35,973 bases of DNA from Bacillota bacterium (lineage in GTDB: Bacteria; Bacillota; Limnochordia; Limnochordales; ZCTH02-B6), in assembly GCA_017656145.1 (NCBI GenBank), contig JACDOI010000003.1:1-35973 (forward strand), in the 5' to 3' direction. How positions within the stretch are numbered: the stretch's first letter is position 1; the number at the start of each line of letters is the position of its first letter. Below the pieces are notes generated by a model. The model worked only from the letters and a program-made list of their open reading frames with translations, made no database searches and was not told the origin of the DNA. The translations under genes were made by a program, and so were the position numbers. Shown here piece after piece: positions 1-15,299 of the stretch.

Positions 1-130
1 CGCCGCCCCACACCCCCCACCGGGGGCGGGCCGGCCACACGGCCGAGGGGGCGGGGGCGGGGCCCGGTGGGGTCTCACCAGCCCCCCCGGGGCCCGCCCC
101 CCCCCCCGGCCGGGCGGGGGGGGGGCGGGC
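1..130. other. Low-complexity C/G-run sequence at window edge
   Basis: This stretch is almost entirely runs of C and G, including runs of more than ten of the same base around 96-125. It falls exactly where the D-threonine-aldolase-like gene loses resemblance to its family: the last translated residues become Pro-rich and then Gly-rich. I infer poor sequence at a contig end or homopolymer errors rather than biology. The stop codon and the C-terminal residues of the adjacent gene should therefore not be trusted. No separate gene is visible in bases 1-74. Confidence 0.6.
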
Positions 131-935
131 TGACGACGGTGGTCAGCACCGTGAGGGCGCAGTCGGCTTCGGCGGCCGCCCACCGTTCGACAGTGTTGCG
201 GTCGTTGAACACGTAGGTACCGGGACGAATTTCGGTCACCCCGCAAACCCCGGCATCAAACACAGCGCCAGGGGTTGAACCCGGGCTGACCTCCTCAATG
301 GCCAGCCCCCGGCGGCGAAGGACTTCCGCCGTCTCCACCAGGGCCTGGGCGGCCCGCCGGGCCTCTTCGGTCAGGGCAGTTTGGGACGACGCGCCCGCGA
401 GGTGGCCCGCGTGAGACATGAGGCCGACGACCTCAACCCCCGGGACTCGCGCAATCCGCTCGGCCAGCTCCACCGTCGCCGCTCCCGGAGCTTGGCCCAA
501 CCGCCGGTGGCCGGTGTCCACATCCACGTAGACTCTGACCCGTCCCCGGCCGCTTTGGCGCCCCGCCTGTCCGGCCGCTTCGGCCGCTTCCACCGAGTCC
601 ACCGAGATGATGAGGTCCGCTTCTTCCAGCAACCGCTGCAGGCGGCGGAGCTTGAGTTCCCCGACAATCGGGTAGGCCACCAAGATGTCGGTGATGCCTG
701 CATCGAGCATCACCTCCGCTTCGCCGAGCTTCGCCACAGTGATGCCCGCGGCGCCGGCCCGGATCTGCCTGTGGGCGATCCAGGGGGACTTGTGGGTCTT
801 GGCGTGGGGGCGCAGCCGGACGCCCGCTTCCCGGGCGCGGGTCGCCATCCGCTCGATGTTGCGGTCCATCACGTCAAGATCCACGACGAGGGCCGGGGTG
901 TCGACCTCCTCAAGCAGGGGTCGCTCATCTCGCAT
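75..935 (-). CDS. D-threonine aldolase-like / alanine-racemase-fold PLP enzyme, C-terminus damaged
   Basis: The N-terminal 270 residues fit the fold-type III PLP family that includes D-threonine aldolase, D-3-hydroxyaspartate aldolase and D-serine dehydratase-like proteins. The family opening DTPALVVDLD is at residues 12-21. The PLP-lysine motif RPHAKTHK is at about 42-49, with K46 the likely Schiff-base lysine. The family acts on D-beta-hydroxy amino acids with PLP and a divalent metal in the cytoplasm. I chose the ATG at 935 because GGGAGGG lies about 7 nt upstream and the family motif begins just after it; the open frame continues upstream with no family resemblance. The protein is 286 aa against roughly 370 for the family. 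The missing metal-binding C-terminus cannot fit in the 74 bases left, and the final residues are low-complexity, so the end is artefactual or truncated. It is the last gene of the CUT2 module, and its exact substrate cannot be called. Confidence 0.72.
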   Translation of the reverse strand: MRDERPLLEEVDTPALVVDLDVMDRNIERMATRAREAGVRLRPHAKTHKSPWIAHRQIRAGAAGITVAKLGEAEVMLDAGITDILVAYPIVGELKLRRLQRLLEEADLIISVDSVEAAEAAGQAGRQSGRGRVRVYVDVDTGHRRLGQAPGAATVELAERIARVPGVEVVGLMSHAGHLAGASSQTALTEEARRAAQALVETAEVLRRRGLAIEEVSPGSTPGAVFDAGVCGVTEIRPGTYVFNDRNTVERWAAAEADCALTVLTTVVSPPPPRPAGGGGGPRGGW

Positions 936-1003
936 ACGTTTCCCTCCCACCTGCCCGCTCGGGCCCGGGTCCGGACGTACTTTCGCCGGAAGACCGAGCT
1001 GGC

Positions 1004-1291
1004 TCATACCAAGAACACGCACACCAGCAACAAAAGGAGAAACAGCAGACTGGTCGCCCGGTCGACGGCAGTTTCCCACAATTCGGCCGCGCCCGGGCTG
1101 GGAGCCCGTTTTCGGGCCCCGCGCTTGAGCAAATCCTCGGCAGGGCCCGCGATGACGACCGCCAGCGCGATCAGCAAGGCCGGCACAGATCCCGCGATGA
1201 CGTAATGAATCAGACCAAAGAGAACGACCGCCCCGCCCACCACCGCGCCGCCGGCCGTCATCGCATTGATCAGGACGTGCACCGGAACCAC
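1004..1291 (-). CDS. Small membrane protein, unknown function
   Basis: This 95-residue protein is strongly hydrophobic, with likely membrane segments at about residues 10-27, 30-49 and 77-95. A basic stretch (KRGARKR) lies at about 56-62 between the second and third segments. I do not recognise the family. The start is GTG at 1291 with a weak GAGCAGGG just upstream; an in-frame ATG at 1261 has no visible ribosome site. It sits 68 bases before the aldolase-like gene on the same strand and about 250 bases after the phosphotriesterase-family gene, behind a hairpin, so it may be expressed separately from the upstream operon. It could be a small membrane partner of the PLP enzyme or a transport accessory, but nothing shows this directly. 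Confidence 0.55.
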   Translation of the reverse strand: MVPVHVLINAMTAGGAVVGGAVVLFGLIHYVIAGSVPALLIALAVVIAGPAEDLLKRGARKRAPSPGAAELWETAVDRATSLLFLLLLLVCVFLV

Positions 1292-1395
1292 CCCTGCTCA
1301 AGTTCGCTGCCCGCTACCTAGATGATACCGGCTAGCGGGCCGGGCTCCTGCCTGAACGCCGCCGCAACCGGCCTTCTGCCTGGACGGGTTCATGG

Positions 1396-1409
1396 CCGGC
1401 GCTCGCCGG
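1396..1409. repeat. Short GC palindrome
   Basis: CCGGCG-CT-CGCCGG forms a 6-bp stem with a 2-nt centre in the gap between the small membrane protein and the phosphotriesterase-family gene. It shares its CCGGCG/CGCCGG core with the larger hairpin at 1463-1491. Its function is unknown. It may be a binding site or simply a chance product of high GC. Confidence 0.3.
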
Positions 1410-1448
1410 TGGCTGAACAAACGCCCCGCTTAGGCTCGCAAACCGCCG

Positions 1449-1491
1449 AAAAGGGCGTGCCCCCGGCGCTCCTGGTAGCCGGGAGCGCCGG
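1449..1491 (-). terminator. Hairpin downstream of the phosphotriesterase-family gene, possible terminator
   Basis: CCGGCGCTCC (1463-1472) and GGAGCGCCGG (1482-1491) form a perfect 10-bp stem with a 9-nt loop, about 50 bases past the stop codon at 1543. Read on the minus strand, TTTT follows about 10 nt after the stem (1449-1452). That is weaker than a classical U tract, so this may be a partial terminator or an RNA-stabilising 3' end. It separates the sugar operon from the last two genes of the module. Confidence 0.45.
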
Positions 1492-1542
1492 CGGCGTTTG
1501 CGCGAGCCGATCATCTTTCTCCTCTCCGCCTCAAGGCAATTT

Positions 1543-2460
1543 TTAGAACGCGAGCCACCGGGCGGGATTATGAATCCAGATCTGGTCTATCTCTTCCTGC
1601 GTCAACCCCTCGTCCCGCAGGCGGGGAATGAACTTCTCCAGGATGTACCGGAATCCCGGGCCGCCCCCGTACGCTGTCAGGTACGAGCGCCGACCCATAT
1701 CCCCTGAGATGAGCAACTGCTTTCCGTACCCGGCTTCCAGCATCCCTTTGATCAGCTCGACGCGAACCGAGTCGGGATAATACTTCACCTTGCTCGGCCC
1801 GTCGTAACCGACGAACGCCCCTCGCGCGGCGATCTTTCGGTGCAGCCACAGGTCGGCGTTCCGGTCGCAGTGACCGATGGTGACTTTGGACAGATCAGCG
1901 CCTTCCTGCTCCAAGATGTCGAGCTGCTCCAGCGCCATAGTACCGGCTTCCGTGTGAACCCAAATCGGCGCTCCTGTAGCCTTGTGCGCCCGGGCGACCG
2001 CGCGCGTCACCTTTTCCTCCTGCGGCGTGATGACGTTATACCAGGATCCGCACTTCAGCACGCCCGGCCGGGCGCCTGTGCCTTCAGCGCCCTCTTCGAT
2101 CTCGCGGATCATGAGATCTCTCAGCTCGTCGACGGACGCCTGAATGACCCAATCGGGGTAAAACCGGCCTTTATTGAAGCCGGTTGTAAACACGATGTGC
2201 ACCGGGGTTTGCCGGCTGATCTCGATCAGGGCTTTCACGTCCCGGCCGTAGTCGATGGCGGTACCTTCGACCAAGCACCGGCCCCCGGCTTGATAAAACA
2301 AGGCCAGCTCCTCAACGGCCTTATCCACCCGAGGCAGTTCGAAGTCGGCATCCTCCCGCATGACAACCGGCGGGGGAAAGCAGATCAAGTGCTCATGGGT
2401 GTACGTGACGCCCAAATCCTTCGGATCAACCTCGCCTTGAATCGTCAGAACCCGTGCCAT
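1543..2460 (-). CDS. Phosphotriesterase-family metal hydrolase (lactonase-like)
   Basis: The 305-residue length and order of motifs match the phosphotriesterase branch of the amidohydrolase superfamily. The complete metal site is visible: H22 and H24 in THEH, bridging K136 in GVLKCGSW, H169 in WVHTEAG, H197 in IGHCD and D254 in SGDMG. The C-terminal NPARWLAF is also typical. Family members hydrolyse phosphotriesters, N-acyl-homoserine lactones or sugar lactones with a binuclear metal centre. In a sugar transport and catabolism operon, a sugar-lactone or phospho-sugar-lactone substrate is the more likely role; this is inference from context. The gene follows the short-chain dehydrogenase by 14 bases, which fits lactone production followed by ring opening. 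The start is ATG at 2460 with AGAAGGTGG just upstream. Confidence 0.85.
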   Translation of the reverse strand: MARVLTIQGEVDPKDLGVTYTHEHLICFPPPVVMREDADFELPRVDKAVEELALFYQAGGRCLVEGTAIDYGRDVKALIEISRQTPVHIVFTTGFNKGRFYPDWVIQASVDELRDLMIREIEEGAEGTGARPGVLKCGSWYNVITPQEEKVTRAVARAHKATGAPIWVHTEAGTMALEQLDILEQEGADLSKVTIGHCDRNADLWLHRKIAARGAFVGYDGPSKVKYYPDSVRVELIKGMLEAGYGKQLLISGDMGRRSYLTAYGGGPGFRYILEKFIPRLRDEGLTQEEIDQIWIHNPARWLAF

Positions 2461-2474
2461 GAGACCACCTTCTG

Positions 2475-3323
2475 TTAAGTCGTCGTCCGTTGCAGCCGCT
2501 CAAAGAGCTTTCTTCGGTAGTTCACGTCCTCCCGCCATACCTTGCCGTTGATCGCCTCCCCTGTCAGAGATCCCGGAGGCAGCGAGGCCAAAAACAGCGC
2601 CGGTTCATCGATCACCGAAGGCGGCTCCAGACTTTCCCGCTCTCGAAGAGGAAGGCGGGCAAAGAATCCGGTATTGACCTTCGCCGCGGGGAACAGCGTG
2701 TTGATGTTCACCCCGTACGGGGAACATTCCGCCGCCGCGACTTCCACCAGCCCCTCCACGCCGAACTTGGAAGCGCAATACGGACCGTCGTTGGCCTTGC
2801 CGTACCCGCGCTGGCCGAGCAACGACGTAATGACGATGACATTTCCCGACCCGCGACTCATCATCGGGGGCAAAACGTGCTTGAGGGTAAGAAACGTCCC
2901 CGTCAAGTTGACCCGGATGATCCGCTCCCACACCGGAAGCGGGAGATCGACGATCCGGCGGTGATCCGGATCGGTCACCCCGGCGTTCGCGACGACGACG
3001 TCCGGCACGCCCAGCGCGGCTATTGTGCCAGCGACAAAACGGCTCAACGCGTCCTCGTCGGTGATGTCGCACCGCTGAAAGAACGTCCGGGGCTCACCCG
3101 CCTCGTTCGCCCCGGGCCGCTCCCGCAGCAGGCGCTCGGTTTCGCCCAACTGGTCTTCTTCCAAAGCGCAGCCGGCCACCCGGGCGCCCATCGTGCCCAG
3201 CGCGAGCGCAAGCGACCTGCCAATGCCCCGTCCCGCACCGGTCACGAGCGCCACCCGGCCCCGCAAGTCCGGGTTCGGACGCCAATCCCAGCTAGGACGT
3301 TGAACCGGAGCCGCTCCTTGCAT
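2475..3323 (-). CDS. Short-chain dehydrogenase/reductase (SDR)
   Basis: This is a classical SDR of 282 residues. The nucleotide-binding TGAGRGIG is at 28-35, NAG at 113-115, and the catalytic Ser, Tyr and Lys at about S167, Y182 and K186 (YCASK). It probably oxidises a hydroxyl of the imported sugar or its derivative with NAD(P)+. I place the start at 3323: AAGGAGGG at 3331-3338 lies only 2 nt from an upstream in-frame ATG (3329) but about 7 nt from this one. It has an unusual 20-residue Pro- and Trp-containing extension before the Rossmann fold. It follows the second permease gene by about 18 bases and precedes the phosphotriesterase-family hydrolase by 14, so the three are very likely co-transcribed. 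Confidence 0.85.
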   Translation of the reverse strand: MQGAAPVQRPSWDWRPNPDLRGRVALVTGAGRGIGRSLALALGTMGARVAGCALEEDQLGETERLLRERPGANEAGEPRTFFQRCDITDEDALSRFVAGTIAALGVPDVVVANAGVTDPDHRRIVDLPLPVWERIIRVNLTGTFLTLKHVLPPMMSRGSGNVIVITSLLGQRGYGKANDGPYCASKFGVEGLVEVAAAECSPYGVNINTLFPAAKVNTGFFARLPLRERESLEPPSVIDEPALFLASLPPGSLTGEAINGKVWREDVNYRRKLFERLQRTTT

Positions 3324-3341
3324 CAACATGCCCTCCTTCCT

Positions 3342-4382
3342 TCACCGCCCCGCCGGCGCCTGGCGCCTTCTCATGAGGAACGACCACTGGGCCGGCGCGG
3401 CGTAGATGGCAACCATGGCCACGATGACCACGCCCCGCATGATCAACTTGCCCGACTCGCCCACGCCAAGGGATGTCATCAAGCTGGTCACCTGGGTGAT
3501 GATGAAGCTTCCGAGGACGCTGCCCAGGACGCTTCCTTGCCCGGTGAACGTATTGCCGCCGACGACGGCGGCGGCCACGGAATTGAGCGTGTACGCCTCG
3601 CCGCCGATGTCAAAGTTCGCGATGCGAATATAGCCCGACAGAACAAACCCAGCCATGGTGGCCAAAAGCCCGCTGGTTCCATAGGCGAACAAAAGCCGCG
3701 CCTTGACGGGAATGCCCGAGTAGTGCGCCGCCTGGGGGTTATTTCCTATGAAGAAGACCGACCGCCCCCAAACCGTACGGCGGGTGATCAAGGCGAAGAG
3801 CAAAATGACGGCGATGTACAAGAGCAACGAGACTGGAATGATGCCGATCCGCTCAGCCCCGATGGTGCGCAATAGAGGGGACACAGACCCCTTGGGCGTC
3901 CCGCCGCTGTAGATGAGGTAAAACCCCCGCACGATGAACGACATGCCAAACGTCATGACCAGCGGCGGCACCCGCGTATAGGCGATGACGGCGCCGTTCA
4001 GCACCCCGATCAAGGTACCAAGCCCCAGCAAAAGACCCATGACCGGCAAGGCCGCCTCCGGGCGCCCTCGCATGAGATCGGTGCCGATGATGTTCGTCAT
4101 CGTGATGATTTCACCGACCGACAAATCGATTCCCCCGGTGAGGATCACAAACGTATGCCCGATCGCGGTGAGACCGAGCGGCACCGCCTGGCGACCGACC
4201 TCCAGCGCGTGGGAAAGCGTCAGGGTGCCCGGGGCAAGAATCCCCGACAAGAAAAACAAGATGATGATGACCGCCGCCAAAGAGAGGGCGATCCTCCCCT
4301 CGCGCGTGAGGTGCCGGCGGCGCCCCGGGGAGGCCGAAACATTTCGTACACCCCCGGGCCGGTTGGTCGTCGGCTCGGACAT
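3342..4382 (-). CDS. CUT2-family sugar ABC transporter permease (RbsC-like), second copy
   Basis: This is a hydrophobic permease of about 346 residues with the RbsC/BPD_transp_2 pattern. Typical stretches are the GLTAIGHTFVILTGGIDLSVG motif region near residue 75 and, near the C-terminus, AAAVVGGNTF followed by GSVLGS. It forms half of the membrane channel that imports a monosaccharide or polyol. I place the start at ATG 4382 because GGGGAGG lies 10 nt upstream. An ATG at 4406 overlaps the preceding stop as ATGA but has a poorer ribosome site, so that longer form is an alternative. The first permease lies immediately upstream and the SDR follows. Confidence 0.88.
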   Translation of the reverse strand: MSEPTTNRPGGVRNVSASPGRRRHLTREGRIALSLAAVIIILFFLSGILAPGTLTLSHALEVGRQAVPLGLTAIGHTFVILTGGIDLSVGEIITMTNIIGTDLMRGRPEAALPVMGLLLGLGTLIGVLNGAVIAYTRVPPLVMTFGMSFIVRGFYLIYSGGTPKGSVSPLLRTIGAERIGIIPVSLLLYIAVILLFALITRRTVWGRSVFFIGNNPQAAHYSGIPVKARLLFAYGTSGLLATMAGFVLSGYIRIANFDIGGEAYTLNSVAAAVVGGNTFTGQGSVLGSVLGSFIITQVTSLMTSLGVGESGKLIMRGVVIVAMVAIYAAPAQWSFLMRRRQAPAGR

Positions 4383-4402
4383 GACCCGTTCGCCTCCCCT
4401 GC

Positions 4403-5398
4403 TCATTTCCGGATGGAGCTGTAAATGACGGCCAGGACTACGATAACGCCGGACAACACGTCCTGCACGAACGGCGAAACGCCGAAAATGTTAAGGGAGA
4501 CCGTCAAAAGCCCCATGATCAGCACGCCCATAACGGTGCCGGGAATGCCTCCCCGCCCGCCTTCGAACGTCGTTCCGCCGATCAGGACCGCCGCCACGGA
4601 GGTGAGCGTGAATGGGTGACCGGCCACCGGATCGCCGGAGTACATGCGGGCCGCCAGAGCCAGGCCGCCCAGGGTCGCAAACAGCGAACTCACAAGATAT
4701 ATCCCCACGGTCACCCGCCGCACCGGGACCCCGGCCACCCGGGCATGCTCTTCGTGCCCGCCGACCGCGTACACCCACCGGCCGAAGCGGGTGTAGTTCA
4801 TGATGAACGCCATCAGAATCGCAAAAACCGCGAAGTACACGAACGACAAGGGCACAACGTCCCCGATCCGGTACAGCAATGCCTGCGTAAACGGCCTCGG
4901 GACGTAGCCTCCCGGGTGGGGGAGGATAATCAAGGCCACCCCGCTGATGACGCTCATCGATCCGAGGGTCGCGATGAGGGGCGGCACGTTGAGCCGCGTG
5001 ATGACGAGCCCGTTGACAAGGCCCACGGCAAGCCCGGCGGCCAAGCACACCGCCAGGCCCCGCAAAACGCCCACCGTGTCAAACCCCATCATGGTCGCCG
5101 CCAACACGGTGGTCAAGCTCACCAGCGGCCCCGCGGCCAGGTCGATCCCCCGCGTGAGGATGGGCAGCGTCTGCCCGAGAGCCACAAGGCCGATGGGAGC
5201 CACCTGGCTCAACACGTTGGTCACGTTTTGGGGGCTGCGAAACGCCGGCGACCACAGGGCGGGTATCACGGTCATCAGAACGACCACGCCGAACAGCATG
5301 AGCATGTCGCGCTGCATCGCGGTCCGGGCCGAGCCTCCCTGAGGCCGGCCTTTGGGGCGATTGGGGCTCGAAAGGCGGGCCCGGTTTCCGTCTGTCAC
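4403..5398 (-). CDS. CUT2-family sugar ABC transporter permease (RbsC-like), first copy
   Basis: This is a permease of about 331 residues in the RbsC family, with multiple membrane segments from about residue 31 onward. It has the family stretches LVALGQTLPILTRGIDLAAG and, near the C-terminus, VAAVLIGGTTFEGGRGG. It should pair with the second permease as a heterodimer energised by the double ATPase. The GTG start at 5398 overlaps the ATPase stop as GTGA, with GGGGGG about 9 nt upstream. The longer open frame reaching 5506 lies inside the ATPase gene. Two distinct permeases, rather than one homodimer, are common in CUT2 systems for less usual sugars. Confidence 0.87.
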   Translation of the reverse strand: MTDGNRARLSSPNRPKGRPQGGSARTAMQRDMLMLFGVVVLMTVIPALWSPAFRSPQNVTNVLSQVAPIGLVALGQTLPILTRGIDLAAGPLVSLTTVLAATMMGFDTVGVLRGLAVCLAAGLAVGLVNGLVITRLNVPPLIATLGSMSVISGVALIILPHPGGYVPRPFTQALLYRIGDVVPLSFVYFAVFAILMAFIMNYTRFGRWVYAVGGHEEHARVAGVPVRRVTVGIYLVSSLFATLGGLALAARMYSGDPVAGHPFTLTSVAAVLIGGTTFEGGRGGIPGTVMGVLIMGLLTVSLNIFGVSPFVQDVLSGVIVVLAVIYSSIRK

Positions 5399-6882
5399 TC
5401 TCGTGTTCCCCCCGTCATGGCATGCAACACGGCCTCTTGAGTCGCTTCCTCGCGACCAAAGGCGGCTACCAGCCGTCCCTCCCACATCGCGATGATGCGA
5501 TCGCACACCATGAGAAGCTCCGGCAGTTCCGACGACGCCATCAGGATTCCGACCCCTCTGGCCGCCAACCGGTTCAAGACCTGATAGATCTCCGCTTTCG
5601 CCCCGACGTCGACGCCCCGGGTCGGTTCATTCACCAGAAGCACCCGCAGTCCGGTGGACAAAAACTTCGCGAAGACGACTTTTTGGCGATTTCCCCCGCT
5701 CAGGTTCTTGACCGCCTGGCGAATGGAGGGTGTGGCAATCTTCAGTTCTTCGACTAAACCATGGACGCGCTCAGGAACCCCGCGCTCGCGTATCCATCCG
5801 GCCTGCGCCTGGAGCTCCGCGGCCGTCACATACACGTTTTCCTTCACATCGAGATCGAGAAACAGCCCTTTCCGAACCCGATCTTCGGGAACGTAGGCGA
5901 TGCCGGCCCGAATGGCGTCCCGGGGGATTCTCGGGGCGTAGGGGCGCCCGTCGAGGATCATCTCGCCCGCTCGCAACAAAGACGCGCCGAAGATGGTTTC
6001 CAAAAGCTCCGTCCGCCCTGCGCCCCGCAACCCGGCGAGCCCCACGATTTCGCCGGCCCGCAGCTCAAAAGAGGCATCTTTCACGCGCCTGTTGCCGGAA
6101 AGACCGCGAACTTCCAACAAGACACGGCCTGGACCGTCGTTGGCCTTCTTTAGGCGGGCCGGAACGCTGCGACCGACCATCATGCGCACCAGTTCCTCGT
6201 GGGTCGTCTCCGCGGTCGGACGGGTTCCGATGTAGCGACCGTTGCGCAGGACGGTCACGCGATCGCTCAACTGGAAGATTTCTTCCATGCGATGGGAGAT
6301 GTAGATGATCCCCTTGCCTTCCCGCTTGAGCCTCCCGATGAGATCAAACAGCACTTGTGTTTCCTGAACGGTGATGGCCGACGTCGGTTCGTCCATGACG
6401 ATGATTTGGGCTTCGAACGCCAATGCTTTCGCGATCTCCACCATTTGGCGCAGCGCCATGGGGAGATCCGCGACCCGGTCATCGGGATGAACCGGTATGG
6501 ACAACTCTTCCAACACCCGCCGGCAGCGGTCCGCAGCCGCTTTCCAGTCGATGACGCCCCAGCGGTTGACGAGTTCCCGCCCGATGAAGAAGTTCTCTTT
6601 CACGGATAACGGTTCGATCAAGTTCAGTTCCTGGTGGATGAACGCCACGCCCGCCGCTTGCGCATCGACCGGCCGCCGGATGAGGCGGGGGCGGCCGTTG
6701 ATGAAGATTTCCCCGGCATCCGGAACGATGACGCCCCCCAAGATGTTCATGAGAGTGCTCTTGCCCGCGCCGTTCTCGCCCATGAGGGCATGGACTTCTC
6801 CCGCCCTCAGCTCAAAGTCGACGGAGTCAAGGGCCTGCACGCCCGGAAACGCCTTAGAAATCCCACGCATCTGCAACAGCAC
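5395..6882 (-). CDS. CUT2 sugar ABC transporter double ATPase (RbsA/MglA-like)
   Basis: Two ABC domains lie in one chain of about 495 residues. The first has Walker A GENGAGKST at 35-43, the Q-loop region HQELNLIEPLSV and Walker B VMDEPTSA; its signature is degenerate (PMALRQ). The second has the family's unusual Walker A (GLRGAGRTE) and a good LSGGNRQ signature. Its Walker B is LLVNEPTRG, where N418 stands in the position that is Asp in E. coli RbsA. The protein energises import by the two following permeases. I prefer the GTG start at 6882, which follows GGAAGAGGGG by about 11 nt; a TTG at 6921 and an ATG at 6870 are alternatives. The start lies about 75 bases after the binding-protein gene. 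Confidence 0.9.
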   Translation of the reverse strand: MLLQMRGISKAFPGVQALDSVDFELRAGEVHALMGENGAGKSTLMNILGGVIVPDAGEIFINGRPRLIRRPVDAQAAGVAFIHQELNLIEPLSVKENFFIGRELVNRWGVIDWKAAADRCRRVLEELSIPVHPDDRVADLPMALRQMVEIAKALAFEAQIIVMDEPTSAITVQETQVLFDLIGRLKREGKGIIYISHRMEEIFQLSDRVTVLRNGRYIGTRPTAETTHEELVRMMVGRSVPARLKKANDGPGRVLLEVRGLSGNRRVKDASFELRAGEIVGLAGLRGAGRTELLETIFGASLLRAGEMILDGRPYAPRIPRDAIRAGIAYVPEDRVRKGLFLDLDVKENVYVTAAELQAQAGWIRERGVPERVHGLVEELKIATPSIRQAVKNLSGGNRQKVVFAKFLSTGLRVLLVNEPTRGVDVGAKAEIYQVLNRLAARGVGILMASSELPELLMVCDRIIAMWEGRLVAAFGREEATQEAVLHAMTGGTRE

Positions 6883-6959
6883 GATGTCGGCCGCCCCTCT
6901 TCCTGAACCTCGACGGATCAAGGCTCTCTGCCTTGTCCTATTTCCTAGTCACTCCGGGC

Positions 6960-8057
6960 TTATTGGCCCCACAGCTCCCGGACCGTCTCCTCGGACAAGG
7001 TGTGGCCCACCCAGTACCCCTCAGCCAGATCGGGGCGGGCGTAGCGCTGCGCCTGCTCCAGGCTGAGGACATAAGGAGCCGTCGCGTGCACTTCCTTGGG
7101 AAGCGGTTCCCCGCGCAGGGCCATGAGCGCCATGCGAAGACCGATGGCCGAGTGGCTCGTGGGGTTGCTGAAGGCGATGCTCTCAAAACCGCGTTCCGCG
7201 TAGCGAATCCAGTCGAGCAGGAACCCGTTGTTGGCCTCGCCGACCATGGGGACCAAAGGCCTTCCGGCATCGACGAAGGCTTCCATCGCGCCTTGGGTCA
7301 TCGCTCCGCCGCCCGACCAGATCCCGTCAATCTGCGGGTACGCAGGCAGCAAGTTGGCCACGGTGGCCTTGGCTTGGGCAAATCCCCAGTCCGCGTATTG
7401 CCGGGTCAGCACCCGGATTCCGGGATATTGATCGAAGACTTCCTTCGCCCCGCGCCAGCGCTCCTCGGCCACAGGATTGCCGGCGATGCCGGAGAGGGCG
7501 ATGATGTTGCCGCTCTCGCCCAATTTCTCGATGAGCCACAAGGCCGTCACCCGACCGTATTCCGCGTCGTCCCGGCCCACCCAGGCGGTCACCTGCTCCA
7601 GCGGGACCTGGCTGCTGACCGCGATGACCGGGATGTTCCGCTGCTTGGCCAGCTGGAAAACGCCCTCCAAAGCGCGCGGCGAGATGGGGTCGATGACGAT
7701 CGCGTCGACTCCCCGGGCGATGAGGTCCTCCACGGCCGCGATCTGGCGGGGAATTTCGCCCTGGGCGTCCAGATGGATGACCTCGCTGATGAGATCCCCG
7801 TGCCGCGCGGCTTCATCCATGAATTCGTGAGTAAACTGAACGGCCCATGTGTTCGCCTGGAAGATGGTCACAAAGCCGATGCGGTACGGGCCTTCCTTCT
7901 TGTAGGCGCCGGTGTCGACGAACTCGTCGCTGACCGAAATCACGTACGGCCAGCCGAGAACTTCGACCTCCGAACTGCGTTCGGCCGCCGATTTGGCATG
8001 CACTTCGCCGGCAACGGCCAAAAGGGCGACGAGGCTGAAGGTGTACAGCCTTCTCAT
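6960..8057 (-). CDS. CUT2 sugar ABC transporter substrate-binding protein
   Basis: This 365-residue secreted binding protein belongs to the periplasmic-binding-protein-like sugar group (Peripla_BP_4). A signal peptide covers about residues 1-21, with a hydrophobic core and VHA before the cleavage site and no lipobox Cys. The mature protein has the family opening YRIGFVTIFQANTW and, in the middle, VDAIVIDPISPRAL and IPVIAVSS. It captures the substrate outside the inner membrane and delivers it to the RbsC-like pair. ATG at 8057 has GAGGT upstream. The ligand cannot be read from the sequence. The gene follows the creatininase-family gene by about 76 bases and precedes the ATPase. Confidence 0.88.
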   Translation of the reverse strand: MRRLYTFSLVALLAVAGEVHAKSAAERSSEVEVLGWPYVISVSDEFVDTGAYKKEGPYRIGFVTIFQANTWAVQFTHEFMDEAARHGDLISEVIHLDAQGEIPRQIAAVEDLIARGVDAIVIDPISPRALEGVFQLAKQRNIPVIAVSSQVPLEQVTAWVGRDDAEYGRVTALWLIEKLGESGNIIALSGIAGNPVAEERWRGAKEVFDQYPGIRVLTRQYADWGFAQAKATVANLLPAYPQIDGIWSGGGAMTQGAMEAFVDAGRPLVPMVGEANNGFLLDWIRYAERGFESIAFSNPTSHSAIGLRMALMALRGEPLPKEVHATAPYVLSLEQAQRYARPDLAEGYWVGHTLSEETVRELWGQ

Positions 8058-8133
8058 GAGACGTCAACCTCGCTTTCCTGTTTCCCGCTTCCCTTGCTGT
8101 CTGTCGTACCCAATCGCGGAAACAACCCTGCCT

Positions 8134-8913
8134 TCATTGTCCGAACCCGTCGCAGGCATCCAAGACCTGAACCATATAGTCAACGAGCTCTTCCAACATC
8201 ACCTCCCCCTTCTTTGCGCTGGCCGCGGTAGCGTCGCCGAACACGCCGCTTTGGCTGAGGGCCCCCATGGGCACCGACGAATGATGATACCCTTGGGTAA
8301 GCGGCGTTTGCGGATACTCTCTGACGGCCTTGCTCATATCGACAAGGTCCGGGCGAACTGCGAGCATCCAGGACGTTTCCAGTTCACAGGCGTGCACCAT
8401 CCCCTCCCAAAGGGGCGTATCGGCGTGTCGCGCCGCGGTTTGCTTGAGGCCCGGATAGGTGAAGTGGAAACACCGGACAGGAATTTCGTCCGCCAATTCC
8501 CTTACCGCGTACTTCATGGCCGAACTGTTAGCCCCATGTCCGCTGATCACGATGAACCGGCGGATGCGGGACGAGCGGTAGAGGCTGCGGGCTGCATCCT
8601 TGATGATGTTTTTCACCAGCGCCTGATCGATGCTGACCGTGCCTGGGATGTCGCGCCAGACCCAGGAATATCCGATAGGCAGCGCCGGCAACACCACAGC
8701 GCCGACGCGCCTGGCCAATCTTAGAGCCAGGTCCCGTGCGAGAAAGTTATCGGTGCCCAAAGGCAAATGGTGCCCGTGCTGCTCGGTGGCACCGATCGGA
8801 AAGATCGCGGTGTCCACCCGGGCGAACGCCTCCGCGGCTTCATCCCGGGTGAGCAGTTCCAATTCGTAGCAAGGAGCTGCATGCTCCCCTCTCGGCACGC
8901 CCGACGAACCCAC
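8134..8913 (-). CDS. Creatininase-family metal-dependent hydrolase
   Basis: The 259-residue protein carries the creatininase-family metal motifs: E44, H46 and D55 in EQHGHHLPLGTD, H126 in SGHGAN, and the HACELETS stretch with E179. The family opens cyclic amides or formamides and includes creatininase, mycofactocin MftE and arylformamide-type hydrolases. Sugar clusters often hold uncharacterised members. A role on a lactone or cyclic amide in this module is inference. The start is chosen as GTG 8913, 9 nt after AAAGGGG and just before the family region. The open frame runs back to 9213 inside the kinase gene without family resemblance. It lies 29 bases after the kinase and before the binding protein. 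Confidence 0.82.
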   Translation of the reverse strand: MGSSGVPRGEHAAPCYELELLTRDEAAEAFARVDTAIFPIGATEQHGHHLPLGTDNFLARDLALRLARRVGAVVLPALPIGYSWVWRDIPGTVSIDQALVKNIIKDAARSLYRSSRIRRFIVISGHGANSSAMKYAVRELADEIPVRCFHFTYPGLKQTAARHADTPLWEGMVHACELETSWMLAVRPDLVDMSKAVREYPQTPLTQGYHHSSVPMGALSQSGVFGDATAASAKKGEVMLEELVDYMVQVLDACDGFGQ

Positions 8914-8942
8914 CAAAGCCAACCCCTTTCCCAGCGTCAAGC

Positions 8943-10472
8943 TCAACCGGCGCCGGCCAGCCGGTGAAACACGGGTTGCAGAGCATCGTACGCCTGCTTG
9001 TACACCGCATATCCCCGGTCGTATACAGCCCGCACCGCGGGATCCGGCGCGACGGGAAAACCGGTTTGCACAGCGATCTGCACCGCCTCCTGGACGTCCC
9101 TCCACACGCCGGCGCCCGCTCCCGCGATGCAAGCTGCTCCAAGGGCCGAGCAATCCAGTTCCTTCAGGGGAACAATCTCGCGGCCGAGCACATCGGCCAT
9201 GACTTGCCTCCACAGCAAACTGCGGCTTCCGCCTTCGCCGGTGCGCACGTCCGTCACGGGAAAGCCCAGCGATTCCACAACTTCAAAGGAATCGCGGAAG
9301 TTGTACGCGACACCCTCAAGCACCGCCCGCACAAAGTGCGCCTTGCCGTGGCGGGCCGCAGCGCCGATGAACGCGGCCCGGGCGAACGGATCGTTGTACG
9401 GGGTGGCGGCGCCGTCCAGAAACGGCAGGAACAAAAGGCCGTCGCTTCCCGGCGGAACGTTGCCCGCCGGCTCCAGGAGCAACTCGAAGTGATCCCGTTC
9501 CACCAAGTCCGACGCCAAGCGCTCGGCTTGTCCGAAGCGCCGGCGAAACCAGTCCAGGCTGTAGCCGCCGGTGAGGACAAGCCCGTGCCAAAAGTAGCGC
9601 CCGGGAATCGCGTGGCACATGAGCCACAGCCGCTCGTCCAAAACATCCGGGGCTTCCTCCAAGTGGACCGCGACGTGACCCGCCGTGGCAATGCTCGCGC
9701 AGCCGGTGCCGGCGCTGGTCACTCCGGTGCCTACGGCCAGCGCGGCCATGTCCCCCGCGCCGGCCACCACCGGGATGCCCGGCAGCAAACCCAGCTCGCT
9801 GGCCGCCTCAGGTGTCAACGTCCCGATGACGTCCGGAGATTCGTGCACCGGCGGCAACCATTGGGCGGGCACGTTCAGTTGGTCAAGAAGCTCCATGAAC
9901 CAATCCCGGCGGCGCATGTCCAGCATCCCCGTAGCGCCCGCGTCGCTGGCATCCGTTGCGAACTGCCCCGTCAACCGGAAGTTGATGTAGTCTTTGGGAA
10001 ACAGGACGCGGTGAACATGGCGCACAAGGTCCGGCTCTCGCTCCATGAACCAGAGCAGCTTCGCCAGCCCGTGAATGGAGCTGATCCGCCCGTAGGTCGC
10101 CCGCCGCAACAGTTCTCCGAACCGTTCTTCAAGGCGGTCGGCCTGCCCGGTAGCCCTTTGGTCGAGCCATATGGCCGCCTCCGTGAGCGGACGCCCTTGG
10201 GCGTCGACCAGGACAATCCCGTTCAGCTGGCCGGATAGCCCGATGGCCTTGACCCGGCTGCGATCGAGATCCGCAAGACTTTCCCCCAACGCCCGGGAAA
10301 CGGCTTCCCACCACTGCTTCGGGGACTGCTCGGCATGTCCGGGCGCCGGGCGCCGGATGCCGTACGCCGAACGCGCTCGGCCTAAGACGTTGCCGCTCTG
10401 GTCGACGACGACAATTTTGGCGGTCGATGTGCCCAGATCGATTCCTACAACAAGGTCGCTGCCCGCGTTCAC
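8943..10472 (-). CDS. FGGY-family carbohydrate kinase, xylulokinase-like
   Basis: This 509-residue protein aligns along its length with xylulokinase. It has the phosphate motif GIDLGTST at 10-17, LFPKDYINFRLTG in the middle, the catalytic-Asp motif GAGDMA (D241) and, near the end, GEGGSRSLLWRQ and ALGAACIAG. It phosphorylates a ketose or polyol with ATP in the cytoplasm. In E. coli XylB the substrate loop reads GQMHG (M77, H78). Here the same place reads GQLNG (L83, N84), so the sugar may not be D-xylulose. The GTG start at 10472 overlaps the regulator's stop as GTGA, with AAGGGGGG 8 nt upstream. It is the first enzyme gene of the operon. Confidence 0.87.
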   Translation of the reverse strand: MNAGSDLVVGIDLGTSTAKIVVVDQSGNVLGRARSAYGIRRPAPGHAEQSPKQWWEAVSRALGESLADLDRSRVKAIGLSGQLNGIVLVDAQGRPLTEAAIWLDQRATGQADRLEERFGELLRRATYGRISSIHGLAKLLWFMEREPDLVRHVHRVLFPKDYINFRLTGQFATDASDAGATGMLDMRRRDWFMELLDQLNVPAQWLPPVHESPDVIGTLTPEAASELGLLPGIPVVAGAGDMAALAVGTGVTSAGTGCASIATAGHVAVHLEEAPDVLDERLWLMCHAIPGRYFWHGLVLTGGYSLDWFRRRFGQAERLASDLVERDHFELLLEPAGNVPPGSDGLLFLPFLDGAATPYNDPFARAAFIGAAARHGKAHFVRAVLEGVAYNFRDSFEVVESLGFPVTDVRTGEGGSRSLLWRQVMADVLGREIVPLKELDCSALGAACIAGAGAGVWRDVQEAVQIAVQTGFPVAPDPAVRAVYDRGYAVYKQAYDALQPVFHRLAGAG

Positions 10473-11233
10473 TGAGACCGCCCCCCTTCAGCCGGCCCGG
10501 GCGCCACCGCCCGGTTGATGTCGATGTGAATTTCGTATCGATCCCCTCGGATGTAGCTGAGGGCGAACTCCACCGCCCGGCCGTCCGCCAGGTACGAAAC
10601 CCGCTCGCTGTACAAGACGGCTGTCCCGACAGGAATTTGCAGCAACGACGCGACATAGCGGGTCGCACTTCTCGCGGTATACATGTCGTGGGCCCAGTCC
10701 GGACGCATGCCGTAGCGGGCATCCAGCGTCTCGTACAAGGACGTCATGACGTCTTCTTTTCGCAATCCGGGAAACAGCGATTCAGGCAGAAACGAGGTGG
10801 AAAGCAGGACCGGCTGGCCATCCGCCGTGCGGATTCGCTCGATCTTCCAGACCGGGGTGTCTTTGGCCAGATTCAGGTGGCGGCACACTTTTTCACCGGC
10901 CAGCTCGACGCCGAAGTCCACCAGCTCCACGCCGGGCGCAAGGCCCCGGCGGCGAATATCGTCGCTGTAGCTGGGCAACTGTCCAAAGGAGCGCAAGATG
11001 CGGGGCGGAGCCACAAACGTGCCTTTGCGCGGCACCCGGTACAGCACGCCCTCATAGACGAGCTCATCAAGCGCGTGTTTGACCGTTCCCCGGCTTACGC
11101 CGTAGCGCAAGGCCAGCTCAGGCTCCGACGGGATCTTATCGTGTTCCTTTGAAGACCGGATATGCGCGAGCAGATCCCGTTTGATTCGCTCATAAAGCGG
11201 CAAATGGCTTTTTTGCCCCGGCACGACGCCCAT
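10469..11233 (-). CDS. GntR-family regulator, HutC type with UTRA effector domain
   Basis: An N-terminal winged helix-turn-helix (about residues 12-78) has the GntR core IPSEPELALRYGVSRGTVK. A UTRA-type ligand domain follows to residue 240 and includes PVWKIERIRTADGQPVLLSTS. HutC-type regulators usually repress an adjacent operon until a sugar phosphate or other pathway metabolite binds. It heads the minus-strand operon and faces the aldolase gene across 186 bases that hold overlapping promoters and repeats. The ATG at 11233 has AAGGAG only 2 nt away. An in-frame GTG at 11224 has a better 11-nt spacing and may be the real start. Confidence 0.88.
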   Translation of the reverse strand: MGVVPGQKSHLPLYERIKRDLLAHIRSSKEHDKIPSEPELALRYGVSRGTVKHALDELVYEGVLYRVPRKGTFVAPPRILRSFGQLPSYSDDIRRRGLAPGVELVDFGVELAGEKVCRHLNLAKDTPVWKIERIRTADGQPVLLSTSFLPESLFPGLRKEDVMTSLYETLDARYGMRPDWAHDMYTARSATRYVASLLQIPVGTAVLYSERVSYLADGRAVEFALSYIRGDRYEIHIDINRAVAPGPAEGGRSQ

Positions 11234-11257
11234 CGCTCCTTGTTGATTGGGAATCGT

Positions 11258-11307
11258 TGCCTATACAAGGCATTCTTTCTTGACTATACAAGCTCTCGAT
11301 TGTATCG
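11258..11307. promoter_or_regulatory. Candidate GntR operator cluster
   Basis: CTATACAAG occurs twice (11261-11269 and 11284-11292), 23 bp apart. The first copy sits in the dyad TGCCT-ATACA-AGGCA (11258-11272). An inverted, palindromic CGATTGTATCG lies at 11297-11307. HutC-type regulators bind AT-rich dyads of the TGTATA/TATACA kind, and these elements overlap both divergent promoters. Autoregulation plus control of the aldolase is inferred. Confidence 0.6.
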
Positions 11308-11308
11308 T
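11280..11308 (+). promoter_or_regulatory. Candidate sigma-70 promoter for the aldolase gene
   Basis: TTGACT (11280-11285) and TATCGT (11303-11308) are separated by 17 bp. This gives a good -35 and a moderate -10, about 110 bases before the GTG start at 11420. It overlaps the opposing promoter and the CTATACAAG elements. Confidence 0.45.
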
Positions 11309-11312
11309 TCAA
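11283..11312 (-). promoter_or_regulatory. Candidate sigma-70 promoter for the GntR-kinase-transporter operon
   Basis: On the minus strand, TTGAAC (11307-11312) and TATAGT (11283-11288) are separated by 18 bp. The start of transcription would fall near 11275, about 40 bases before the regulator's start codon. One CTATACAAG element lies on the -10 and the other just downstream, positions that suit repression. Confidence 0.5.
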
Positions 11313-11419
11313 GACGACAGTACAGACTCCTGCTGCCTTTTGCCGGAGACGAAAATTCGCTTGGGGCAGCAAAATCGCCGTAGCGCCTTGGCGTGGCGGC
11401 CACGGGAGGTTAGACAGTC

Positions 11420-12055
11420 GTGAAAGCTCGCGTTTTGGATGCGCTCTTTCGCATCGGGATCATCCCCATCGTCCGCGTTGCCTCGGAAGAAATGGCCGTA
11501 CGAATCAGCGGCGTTCTCCTCGAAGCGGGCATGGGAACGGTGGAAATCCCTTTTACCAATCCAGCTGCCCCCCGCATCATCGAGGCGCTGCGAAAGCGAT
11601 ATCCCGATGCCATCATCGGAGCGGGCACGATTCTGGATGAAGCGTCGGCCCGGGCTGCGGTAAACGCCGGCGCCCAGTACATGATCAGCGCCGGATTGGT
11701 CGGTTCAATGATCAAGACGGCTCACCGGTACGGGCTGCCCGCTATCCCCGGCGTCATGACGCCGACAGAGGCCGTCCTCGCCCTCGAACAAGGGGCGGAT
11801 GTCCTCAAGCTGTTCCCGGCATCCGCGCTGGGACCGTCCTATCTGAAGGCGCTGCGAGCCCCTTTGCCGCAAGCAAGATGGTGCCCGACCGGCGGGGTCG
11901 ACTCGACCAACTTGCATGAGTGGGTGAACGCCGGCGCCGACCTGGTAGGTGTGGGAAGCCCGCTGCTGAAGGACGTATCCTCGACGGGCGACTTCAGCGC
12001 TCTCGCAAAGCGGGCCCGCCGGTTCGTCGAAACGTGGCGGCAAGCGAAGACGTGA
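11420..12055 (+). CDS. KDPG/KDPGal-type 2-keto-3-deoxy-phosphosugar acid aldolase
   Basis: This 211-residue class I aldolase keeps the family's catalytic Glu (E42 in VEIPF) and Schiff-base Lys (K130 in LKLFPAS), plus GAGT at 67-70 and PTGGV at 156-160. It would cleave a 2-keto-3-deoxy-6-phospho acid to pyruvate and a phosphorylated aldehyde. E. coli Eda has R49 in EVTLRT; here the segment is EIPFTNP, without that Arg. The surrounding FPASALGPSYLKALRAPLP is closer to E. coli DgoA (FPSSAFGPQYIKALKAVLP) as I recall it. A 2-keto-3-deoxy-6-phosphogalactonate aldolase-like activity is therefore favoured over classic KDPG. The start is GTG with GGGAGG 10 nt upstream. It is divergent from the GntR gene and probably part of the same pathway. 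Confidence 0.85.
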   Translation: MKARVLDALFRIGIIPIVRVASEEMAVRISGVLLEAGMGTVEIPFTNPAAPRIIEALRKRYPDAIIGAGTILDEASARAAVNAGAQYMISAGLVGSMIKTAHRYGLPAIPGVMTPTEAVLALEQGADVLKLFPASALGPSYLKALRAPLPQARWCPTGGVDSTNLHEWVNAGADLVGVGSPLLKDVSSTGDFSALAKRARRFVETWRQAKT

Positions 12056-12260: not shown

Positions 12261-13136
12261 TTGGCAACAGGTTCGGGCCCAGGGCGAATCAGCGATAGGG
12301 AGGGGTCGTCCATCGACACGCCCTTCACATCCGTGCAAGGCCGACACCTGGTGCAGGAGATCATCGGGCAGGTGGAGGCACTGCTTCGGGAAGGCGCGCT
12401 CAAGCCGGGAGACAAGCTTCCTCCCGAAGCCGAGTTGTGCCAGATCTTCGGCGTGAGTCGTCCCGTACTGCGGGAAGCGTTCGCGGGCCTTCGCGAGCTC
12501 GGCATCCTGCGCATCGAGCGCGGATCCGGCACGTTTGTGGCCAACCCGGTGGCCGAGGCGACCGGGCAACGGCTTGCCCGCCATTTGGCCGGCTCCGCGG
12601 GGAACCTGCTGGCCTTGATGGAGGTGCGGCTCGCTCTTGAGCCGGAAGCAGCCCGGCTGGCGGCCGAGCGGGCGACCGCCGACGACATCCAAGACATCGA
12701 AGCGGCCTTTCGCGCCATGGAACAGGCAGTGGTCCGGGGTGACGTGGGAAGCGATGAGGACTACCGCTTCCACCACACCCTCGCCGCCGCCACGCACAAC
12801 GAAGTATTCCAGAGAGTTATCGAACTGATCGGGGACCTCTTCATCCGGTCCCTCTGGGTGAGCCGCCAACGGTCCATGCGCTTCGTCGAACGGCCCCGTC
12901 AGGCTTTGGAGGAGCACCGGGCGGTCCTTGAGGCGGTCCGGCGCGGGGAGGCCGCTTCTGCCTGGCAAGCCATGCGGGCCCACCTGCTCGGCGCTCGCCA
13001 GCGGCTGATCGACGAGCGTGGCATCCGGGTGGCCGAGATCGAGCCCGAAACCTTGCGTACCGACGGCCCCCCAGAAGCGGCGAGCCTGCCCATGAGTGAG
13101 AAACCTCAAGCGGCGCCCGGCAAAGCCCAGGGCTGA
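12261..13136 (+). CDS. GntR-family regulator, FadR type with FCD domain
   Basis: A winged helix at about residues 28-95 (LPPEAELCQIFGVSRPVLREA) is followed by an all-helical FCD domain. The FCD domain includes DYRFHHTLAAATHNEVF and later EEHRAVLEAV, whose Asp and His residues resemble the family's metal and ligand site. FCD regulators commonly sense organic acids or sugar acids, which fits the TRAP and SLC13 genes downstream. The start is uncertain. TTG at 12261 is the farthest canonical start but has no ribosome site and lies directly against the candidate operator. The best ribosome site (GGGAGGGG, 12298-12305) points at an ATC codon at 12312, about ten residues before the fold begins. GTG 12333 is a third option. 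Confidence 0.85.
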   Translation: MATGSGPGRISDREGSSIDTPFTSVQGRHLVQEIIGQVEALLREGALKPGDKLPPEAELCQIFGVSRPVLREAFAGLRELGILRIERGSGTFVANPVAEATGQRLARHLAGSAGNLLALMEVRLALEPEAARLAAERATADDIQDIEAAFRAMEQAVVRGDVGSDEDYRFHHTLAAATHNEVFQRVIELIGDLFIRSLWVSRQRSMRFVERPRQALEEHRAVLEAVRRGEAASAWQAMRAHLLGARQRLIDERGIRVAEIEPETLRTDGPPEAASLPMSEKPQAAPGKAQG

Positions 13137-13181
13137 AAAGGGTGAAGACCGCAGGTGCCGCAAGACCGAGGAGATGAACGG

Positions 13182-14066
13182 ATGAACCGGCTGGGATACG
13201 AGCTGATCCGGGATGCGGTCGACTTGCACGTCCACAGCGGACCGAGCCATTTCCCGCGCCGGCTCGACGACGACGAGCTGGTCGCGGCGCTGGAGGAAGC
13301 GGGCCTGCGCGCGGCAGTGCTCAAGGCTCATGAGGGTTCGACGGCCGAAAGGGCTTACCTGGCCCAAAAGCGCGCAAGCCGGCTGCGGATCTTCGGCTCG
13401 ATCACCCTAAACCGCTTCGTGGGCGGGCTCAACCCATACGCAGTCGAGAGCGCGCTGGCGCTGGGCGCCAAGATCGTCTGGTTTCCGACGGTTCATGCGG
13501 AGAACCACCTGAGGTTTTACGGGGGCGCGGGCTATCGCGAGATGCCTCGCCATCCCCAGTTGCGATTGCCCGTGGAGGGGATCACGGTCCTGGGGGAGGA
13601 CGGGCGACTCGTGGAGGCAGCCCAGAACATCCTGGAGCTTTGTGCTGAGAGGCGCGCCGTAGTGGCCACGGGGCATCTCCATCCTTCCGAAACCCGGGTG
13701 CTGGTAAAGGAAGCCCGGGCCCGGGGTGTGGAGCATGTGCTTGTAACGCACCCGCACCTTCCGGTCACTCGGATTCCCCTGGAACTGCAAAAAGAGCTGG
13801 CCTCTTTAGGAGCCTGGCTCGAACACTCCTACTTGCCCACCACGGAGAAGTGGGGCGGTTTCCCGCTCGAGACGCTGCTGTACGACGTCAAGGAGGTGGG
13901 GCCTGAACGCTGTGTGCTGCAGTCGGACTTGGGCCAGGTCTCCCTGCCGTCCCCGGCAGACGGCCTGGCGGCGCTTTGTGAGGGGCTGGTGAGAAACGGT
14001 CTCAGTGAAACCGACGTGCGGCGGATGATCGCCGACAATCCGGCCCGCATCCTGGGGCTTGATTGA
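13182..14066 (+). CDS. DUF6282-type amidohydrolase-like protein
   Basis: The 294-residue protein has the layout of an amidohydrolase-superfamily barrel. It shows DLHVHSGP with H16 and H18, FPTVHAENH with H104 and H109, ATGHLHP with H165 and H167, VTHPH with H190 and H192, LQSDLG with D249, and a terminal NPARILGL. I recognise the family as DUF6282, which has no established reaction. A metal-dependent hydrolase of an amide, lactone or cyclic ester is inferred. ATG 13182 is chosen because GAGGAG lies 8 nt upstream; the frame reaches a GTG at 13155. It follows the FadR-type regulator by 45 bases and precedes the TRAP receptor by 95, so its substrate or product is probably the TRAP ligand. Confidence 0.78.
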   Translation: MNRLGYELIRDAVDLHVHSGPSHFPRRLDDDELVAALEEAGLRAAVLKAHEGSTAERAYLAQKRASRLRIFGSITLNRFVGGLNPYAVESALALGAKIVWFPTVHAENHLRFYGGAGYREMPRHPQLRLPVEGITVLGEDGRLVEAAQNILELCAERRAVVATGHLHPSETRVLVKEARARGVEHVLVTHPHLPVTRIPLELQKELASLGAWLEHSYLPTTEKWGGFPLETLLYDVKEVGPERCVLQSDLGQVSLPSPADGLAALCEGLVRNGLSETDVRRMIADNPARILGLD

Positions 14067-14161
14067 TGGATACCGGCGTTGCCGCAGCTTGCTGGCGGGC
14101 AGGTTGCCCGGGGCGAGCGGGCGTCGCGCCGGGGACTGGCGAACGAGGGAGGTAAGCGCTG

Positions 14162-15172: not shown

Positions 15173-15182
15173 GCCATGGCTT

Positions 15183-15217
15183 GGGTGGTGGGACCTGGCG
15201 GTCCGGTCCCACCGCCC
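15183..15217 (+). other. Intercistronic stem-loop between dctP and dctQ
   Basis: A 13-bp stem (15183-15195 with 15205-15217, one G-U pair) encloses a 9-nt loop. The core GGTGGGACC/GGTCCCACC is perfect. It begins 10 bases after the receptor stop and no U tract follows. Such structures after binding-protein genes often protect the upstream mRNA or let only part of the transcription continue, giving more receptor than membrane subunit. Here that role is inferred. Confidence 0.6.
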
Positions 15218-15299
15218 GGCCTATTGCGCCGCGCCGTTGCGCCGGTCTTGAGTCGCCTGCCGCCGTTTGCGGTCGTCGCGAGAAAGGAGGTCCCAGAGC

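Follow-up and report, generated by a model that had tools for sequence, protein, structure and literature searches.

A stretch of 35,973 bases at the start of contig 3 of a Bacillota genome (2.57 Mb, 116 contigs), referred to here as the window, contains a gene cluster that is a new variant, with its own transporter, kinase and dehydrogenase, of a known, uncharacterised gene set. The constant part of this set is a creatininase-family protein together with a phosphotriesterase (PTE)-family protein, and the occurrence of this pair in several phyla, combined with uptake systems and aldolases that replace one another, points to one widespread nutrient pathway. The cluster is probably a catabolic operon, in which a sugar or sugar lactone is handled as a phosphorylated lactone with an end similar to that of the Entner-Doudoroff pathway.

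The cluster and its conservation in sister genomes

All families named in the initial annotation, among them a HutC regulator, a xylulokinase-like kinase, creatininase- and PTE-family proteins, a CUT2 transporter, a short-chain dehydrogenase/reductase (SDR) and a divergent aldolase, were confirmed by hidden Markov model (HMM) searches. A search of the window against Rfam gave no matches. The genes from hutC (beginning at 11233) to the PTE gene (ending at 1543) share the minus strand, and the aldolase gene, of the 2-keto-3-deoxy-6-phosphogluconate/galactonate (KDPG/KDPGal) type, lies on the opposite strand. A pyridoxal phosphate (PLP) enzyme gene is found at the contig end.

11420-12055, plus strand: KDPG/KDPGal-type aldolase (PF01081, 147 bits), divergent from hutC
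11257-11292, no strand: tandem operator-like repeat, CTTGTATAG[GT]CAA twice, 23 bp apart
10469-11233, minus strand: HutC-type GntR/UTRA regulator (PF07702, PF00392)
8943-10472, minus strand: FGGY sugar kinase, XylB-like (TIGR01312, 407 bits)
8134-8913, minus strand: creatininase-family metalloprotein (PF02633)
6960-8057, minus strand: CUT2 sugar-binding protein (PF13407), 70-81% identical in three sister clusters
5395-6870, minus strand: CUT2 ATPase, RbsA/AraG-like, start inferred from homologues, position conserved
4403-5350, minus strand: CUT2 permease 1, AraH/RbsC-like, start inferred, position conserved
3342-4406, minus strand: CUT2 permease 2, HMM match, position conserved
2475-3329, minus strand: SDR dehydrogenase (PF00106), YxxxK in the sequence
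1543-2460, minus strand: PTE-family protein (PF02126), best PDB relative 3PNZ
1004-1282, minus strand: small membrane-protein-like open reading frame of 92 amino acids, separating the PTE gene from the PLP gene
131-935, minus strand: partial PLP gene, BhcC/D-threonine-aldolase-like, at the contig end, not a cluster member

A search for creatininase and PTE relatives covered the class to which the window genome belongs and found 61 genomes with the creatininase and 73 with the PTE. Close relatives (at least 62%) of both proteins come from the same three other genomes, G024, G045 and G050, which are Bacillota metagenome-assembled genomes (MAGs) according to their public records. The order HutC-FGGY-creatininase-binding protein-ATPase-permease-permease-SDR-PTE is unbroken in G024 and G050, and in G045 it is split over two contigs with the break inside the ATPase gene. 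Identities across the nine genes range from 49 to 81%, the HutC regulators at the head of the clusters being 65, 55 and 52% identical in G024, G045 and G050, respectively, and the SDRs 53-56%. This clustering of nine genes, in the same order in three other genomes, is far above chance. When 399 genomes were sampled evenly across the phylum, a strong creatininase match was present in the window genome only, and thus the cluster is rare and specific rather than a common background neighbourhood.

The two copies of the tandem repeat lie in the gap between hutC and the aldolase gene, and their position closer to hutC is better support for autoregulation of the operon than for control of the aldolase. 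The same repeat, in tandem with a spacing of 24 bp, precedes hutC in G024, and TTGTATAGNCAA occurs in exactly two copies in the whole 2.57 Mb window genome, both of them in this gap. The repeat core fits the HutC-type operator, and HutC would then repress the operon from this putative tandem operator.

The PLP enzyme, originally counted as a pathway member, can no longer be regarded as part of the cluster. The gene (Ala_racemase_N/BhcC-like) starts at 935 and is incomplete, as the contig begins inside it; it is broken by long G/C runs in approximately the first 130 bases of the window, which look like a degraded read or assembly end and not like genomic sequence. About 267 plausible residues can be read, compared to open frames of approximately 350-405 amino acids in relatives, and the N-terminal part reaches 142 bits against NF045642 (cut-off 690), the C-terminal part being cut off by the contig end. 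Since the best-matching genome, G024, has no relative at E < 0.001 and the homologs in G045 and G050 (41-46% identity) are located on contigs other than that of the cluster, the PLP enzyme was excluded. A function as D-glucosaminate-type ammonia-lyase is chemically attractive, and was dropped because the gene is not kept together with the cluster in the other genomes. Elsewhere in the window genome, a contig begins with a stretch (G000:C32:1-600, L048) that can be read as the C-terminus of a D-threonine-aldolase-like protein (VVDAGSK...HIIPNHVC) preceded by unrelated sequence; there is a 72% DNA match to positions 9-180 of the window.

Downstream of the aldolase gene a second unit (12261-17116, plus strand) encodes a FadR-type regulator, an amidohydrolase-like protein with DUF6282, a domain of no known function, and a complete TRAP transporter (DctP-Q-M).

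Exchangeable uptake systems and a phosphorylated substrate

A wider survey consisted of a scan of a genome collection with the creatininase alignment and of searches in Bacillales. Creatininase and PTE occur together in 30 of the 31 clusters compared, with an Armatimonadota contig (L067) as the exception. The phyla represented by the pair are Bacillota, Poribacteria, Latescibacterota, Gemmatimonadota, Coprothermobacterota and Deinococcota. Kinase, creatininase, PTE and aldolase also co-occur across several phyla, and conservation of this kind had been named as support for a single pathway. Besides the window type, the pair is present in three settings. The first, HutC-EIIA-EIIB-EIIC-PTE-(Eda aldolase)-creatininase, is found in Bacillaceae and in one Listeria cluster. 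The second, PRD/BglG regulator-EIIA-EIIB-EIIC-PTE-creatininase-(DagF aldolase)-SIS-(NagA-NagB), is found in Bacillaceae and in a second Listeria cluster, and its PTE is a close ortholog of Lmo2620 (3PNZ; 586 bits, full length). The third consists of creatininase-PTE-FGGY triads in Poribacteria, Latescibacterota, Gemmatimonadota and Trueperaceae, the latter with an SDR that is 43% identical to that of the window. SIS, NagA and NagB genes follow the cluster in some Bacillaceae and in Coprothermobacter. In two phosphotransferase system (PTS) operons (L176, 7032-7715; L177, 6828-7511) PTE, creatininase and SIS are followed by a CutC-family gene, annotated for copper homeostasis, which hints that CutC may have a metabolic role.

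In Bacillaceae, Listeria and Coprothermobacter a PTS, the EIIC proteins of which score as ascorbate-type, takes the place of both the CUT2 transporter and the kinase. It can therefore be assumed that both versions deliver a phosphorylated compound and that the downstream enzymes act on phosphorylated substrates. The PTE-family protein is in agreement with this. It contains the ligands of a binuclear metal site (HxH, Lys, His, His, Asp; H22, H24, K136, H169, H197, D254), and its residues K224, K226, R257 and Y260 align in the comparison with 3PNZ with K242, K244, R275 and Y278 of Lmo2620, counted in the alignment, which reportedly bind the distal phosphate in the Lmo2620 structure. Lmo2620 reportedly hydrolyses D-lyxono- and L-ribono-1,4-lactone 5-phosphates. 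All four positions are kept across the aligned window-type, PTS and triad clusters, and the K224 position is occupied by Arg in a distant G024 paralog and in the Deinococcus and Mycoplasmopsis proteins. Because the phosphate-site residues are kept and a PTS replaces transporter and kinase, the window PTE is predicted to be a phospho-sugar-lactonase.

G024 has a second PTE-family cluster (L049, G024:C245, 398-6296) with a HutC-type regulator, a BadF-type kinase, SIS and a FAD_oxidored protein, and a plasmid of Deinococcus aetherius (L200) carries a similar FAD_oxidored/PTE/Eda/SIS set with FGGY and SDR in addition. In Mycoplasmopsis gallopavonis (L202, 6989-12922) a phospho-furanose lactonase is located beside an ascorbate PTS and UlaD-E-F, and no UlaG is annotated; the lactonase stands where UlaG would be expected, and this suggests that its natural substrate may be ascorbate 6-phosphate. 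An ascorbate pathway of this kind was rejected for the creatininase-PTE clusters, as no UlaD-E-F was seen near them.

The kinase exceeds the XylB cut-off (407 bits against TIGR01312, cut-off 380), but has GQLNG at the position of the substrate motif GQMHG of XylB (2ITM). When nine cluster kinases were aligned, eight had GQ[LM]NG and one GHMNG, so that the Asn is present in all nine. An SDR is encoded in all four window-type CUT2 clusters and is absent from the operons of the PTS clusters, a distribution that would fit if the window-type systems import a sugar still to be oxidised and the PTS versions a lactone that is already formed. The ligand of the CUT2 binding protein could not be derived from homology, as its best PDB relatives are diverse ribose and polyol binders with low, uninformative scores.

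The aldolase has the Schiff-base Lys (LKLFPA) and the phosphate loop (PTGG...GVGS), and the group closest to it includes the aldolase found directly after the PTE gene in G024 (57% identity). Across the clusters the aldolase slot is filled by three Eda-type groupings or by the non-orthologous DagF (PF07071). That several non-orthologous aldolases are found in one slot argues for a pyruvate-forming retro-aldol cleavage as a true step of the pathway. In the Listeria assembly with the cluster of the first setting (L197, 9910-10535) the genes for PTE and creatininase are intact, and the aldolase gene lying between them has an incomplete frame.

Proposed pathway and alternative explanations

In the pathway that we propose, the CUT2 system would import a sugar, the SDR would oxidise it to the aldonolactone and the FGGY kinase would phosphorylate the terminal hydroxyl group. 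The PTE-family protein would then hydrolyse the phospho-1,4-lactone to the phospho-aldonate, and the creatininase-family protein would catalyse a step leading to the 2-keto-3-deoxy-phospho-acid, either a dehydration or, if the compound is an N-acyl amino sugar acid, removal of an amide. The aldolase would finally cleave the 2-keto-3-deoxy-phospho-acid to pyruvate and a phosphorylated aldehyde. The succession of lactone formation, phosphorylation and retro-aldol cleavage contained in the initial annotation thus fits, but its order has to be changed, as the PTE residues and the exchange of kinase and PTS indicate phosphorylation before ring opening.

It had also been suggested that the cluster encodes two ring-opening hydrolases. 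Ring opening by the PTE-family protein is consistent with the data, whereas the creatininase-family protein probably does not open a second ring and acts between phospho-aldonate and aldolase. It scores below the cut-offs of the characterised relatives (TIGR04448, 121.6 bits, cut-off 235; MftE TIGR03964, 122.8 bits, cut-off 172; IolN NF041098, 96 bits, cut-off 245), and its set of metal ligands is not full, since EQH...D and GH are kept but the Glu of NGHYEN is replaced (GHGAN). In a Coprothermobacter MAG (1.2 Mb), which has the full PTS version and may be incomplete, no IlvD/Edd protein was found, and the single enolase-like hit stayed below the threshold. Together with the lack of a linked dehydratase in nearly all clusters this makes the creatininase-family protein a candidate for formation of the 2-keto-3-deoxy acid. 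An Enterococcus PTS-PTE cluster that has no creatininase gene and contains a DgoD-type dehydratase in its place also speaks for such a function. We put forward only tentatively that it is a new phospho-aldonate dehydratase or performs an equivalent step; if so, the cluster would encode a complete, Entner-Doudoroff-like phospho-lactone pathway without an IlvD/Edd or enolase-type dehydratase, and the creatininase subfamily would gain a role in sugar metabolism. The SIS, NagA and NagB genes of some versions, however, would also fit a protein that removes an amide from an amino sugar acid.

Several points weigh against the phospho-lactone pathway. Except for enolase-superfamily genes next to two of the Poribacteria triads and the DgoD-type gene of the Enterococcus cluster, the clusters have no linked dehydratase or ammonia-lyase, so that formation of the aldolase substrate would depend on the creatininase-family protein or on an enzyme encoded elsewhere. 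The aldolase gene of the window is divergent and outside the operon, an unlinked paralog on contig 18 is equally close (61%), and no aldolase gene adjoins the cluster in G045 or G050. The PTE reaches 205 bits against the phospho-furanose-lactonase model NF045706, far below the cut-off of 630, and may act like this enzyme, although the score does not support membership of that equivalog. Alicyclobacillus has CUT2 and FGGY without an SDR, and the kinases of Alicyclobacillus and Deinococcus do not contain the GQ[LM]NG motif, which probably means that a kinase was recruited more than once. In addition, the SIS, NagA and NagB genes of some PTS versions point to amino sugars rather than to plain sugars.

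The latter genes are the starting point of an alternative that we regard as unlikely, in which an N-acylated 2-amino sugar, or the lactone of such a sugar, would be the substrate. The PTE would open the phospho-lactone, the creatininase-family protein would remove the N-acyl group, ammonia would be lost by an unlinked lyase or by SIS, and the aldolase would cleave KDPG. HutC/UTRA regulators include regulators of amino-sugar genes, creatininase belongs to an amidohydrolase family, and the second PTE cluster of G024 combines a BadF-type kinase with SIS. DagF, moreover, is the aldolase of the D-glucosaminate pathway (PMC9529869). However, none of the clusters compared contains an ammonia-lyase, NagA and NagB are missing from most of them, including all CUT2 clusters, and the PLP gene of the window is not conserved with the cluster. 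Recycling of a muramic delta-lactam by a lactam hydrolase and SIS was rejected, because the cluster occurs in Poribacteria and Latescibacterota and contains a lactonase-like protein and an aldolase.

It is even more doubtful that two functions are only loosely joined, with CUT2, kinase, creatininase, PTE and SDR feeding the pentose phosphate pathway and the aldolase belonging to the TRAP/FadR operon. The position of the aldolase gene on the opposite strand beside the FadR, DUF6282 and TRAP genes would agree with this, as would the Poribacteria and Latescibacterota clusters, in which only creatininase, PTE and FGGY are found, and the kinase score above the XylB cut-off. Yet varied aldolases are located in or beside the cluster in G024, Bacillaceae, Listeria, Coprothermobacter and Alicyclobacillus, and the GQMHG motif of XylB is changed; motif change and linked aldolases also weaken a plain xylulokinase/pentose phosphate assignment. 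A cyclitol pathway, with the creatininase-family protein as an IolN-like hydrolase of oxidised inositol as in inositol breakdown of Thermotoga, is highly improbable. CUT2 transporters and SDRs are common in cyclitol uptake and oxidation, and IolN is of the same family, but the score falls far short of the IolN cut-off, the window-type clusters showed no Gfo/Idh-type inositol dehydrogenase, and neither the ascorbate-type PTS nor the phospho-lactonase features fit a carbocycle.

Relation to known systems

Our literature search found no paper assigning this gene set or pathway, although subscription literature was mostly outside the search and an assignment may exist. Homologous clusters already assigned to a known sugar, which would have argued against a new pathway, were likewise not found, and the Listeria PTS versions (lmo1968-1973 and the lmo2648-2649 region) are without a substrate in the literature examined. 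We also know of no report of a natural substrate for Lmo2620, and the proposed pathway would give this orphan phospho-lactonase a physiological setting. The genes lmo1968 (creatininase-like), lmo1969 (KDPG aldolase-like), lmo1970 (PTE-related) and lmo1971-1973 (PTS) are listed in a pan-genome study as lineage-specific or unevenly distributed Listeria genes, with no substrate (PMC2996996). Expression of lmo2649, the PTS gene of one version, rises in soil (PMC3179493), so that soil or plant debris may be the source of the nutrient.

Among the known systems, the D-glucosaminate (Dga) pathway of Salmonella resembles the proposed one in import with phosphorylation followed by a KDG-6-P aldolase (PMC9529869), but uses a PLP ammonia-lyase and has no lactonase or creatininase protein. 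The Mycoplasmopsis cluster shares a PTE-family lactonase beside an ascorbate PTS, but continues with UlaD-E-F and contains neither creatininase nor KDPG aldolase. A plasmid cluster of Enterococcus faecium (L201, 232-3922; EIIB-EIIC-DgoD-like dehydratase-PTE, with IS elements close by) has a DgoD-type dehydratase beside a distant PTE and no creatininase gene, and is possibly a mobile sugar-lactone locus. The plasmid cluster of Alicyclobacillus dauci is similar to the window in CUT2, PTE, creatininase, GntR and FGGY, and differs in DagF instead of Eda, the missing SDR, a divergent CUT2 and another kinase motif. With the Lmo2620/3PNZ cluster (BglG-PTS-PTE-creatininase-KDGP aldolase-SIS) the window shares the PTE-creatininase pair, the phosphate-site residues and the aldolase slot, whereas PTE identity is about 41% and that cluster has its own PTS, a DagF-type aldolase and SIS. 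The Listeria monocytogenes cluster lmo1968-lmo1973, which the Bacillaceae clusters match, encodes creatininase, KDPG aldolase, PTE and PTS IIC-IIB-IIA and is like the window in its GntR/HutC-family regulator, PTE (55%), Eda-type aldolase and creatininase (49%); it has an ascorbate-type PTS and no SDR where the window has CUT2 and FGGY, and with such PTS versions in Listeria and Bacillus the same pathway would be approachable in easily grown bacteria.

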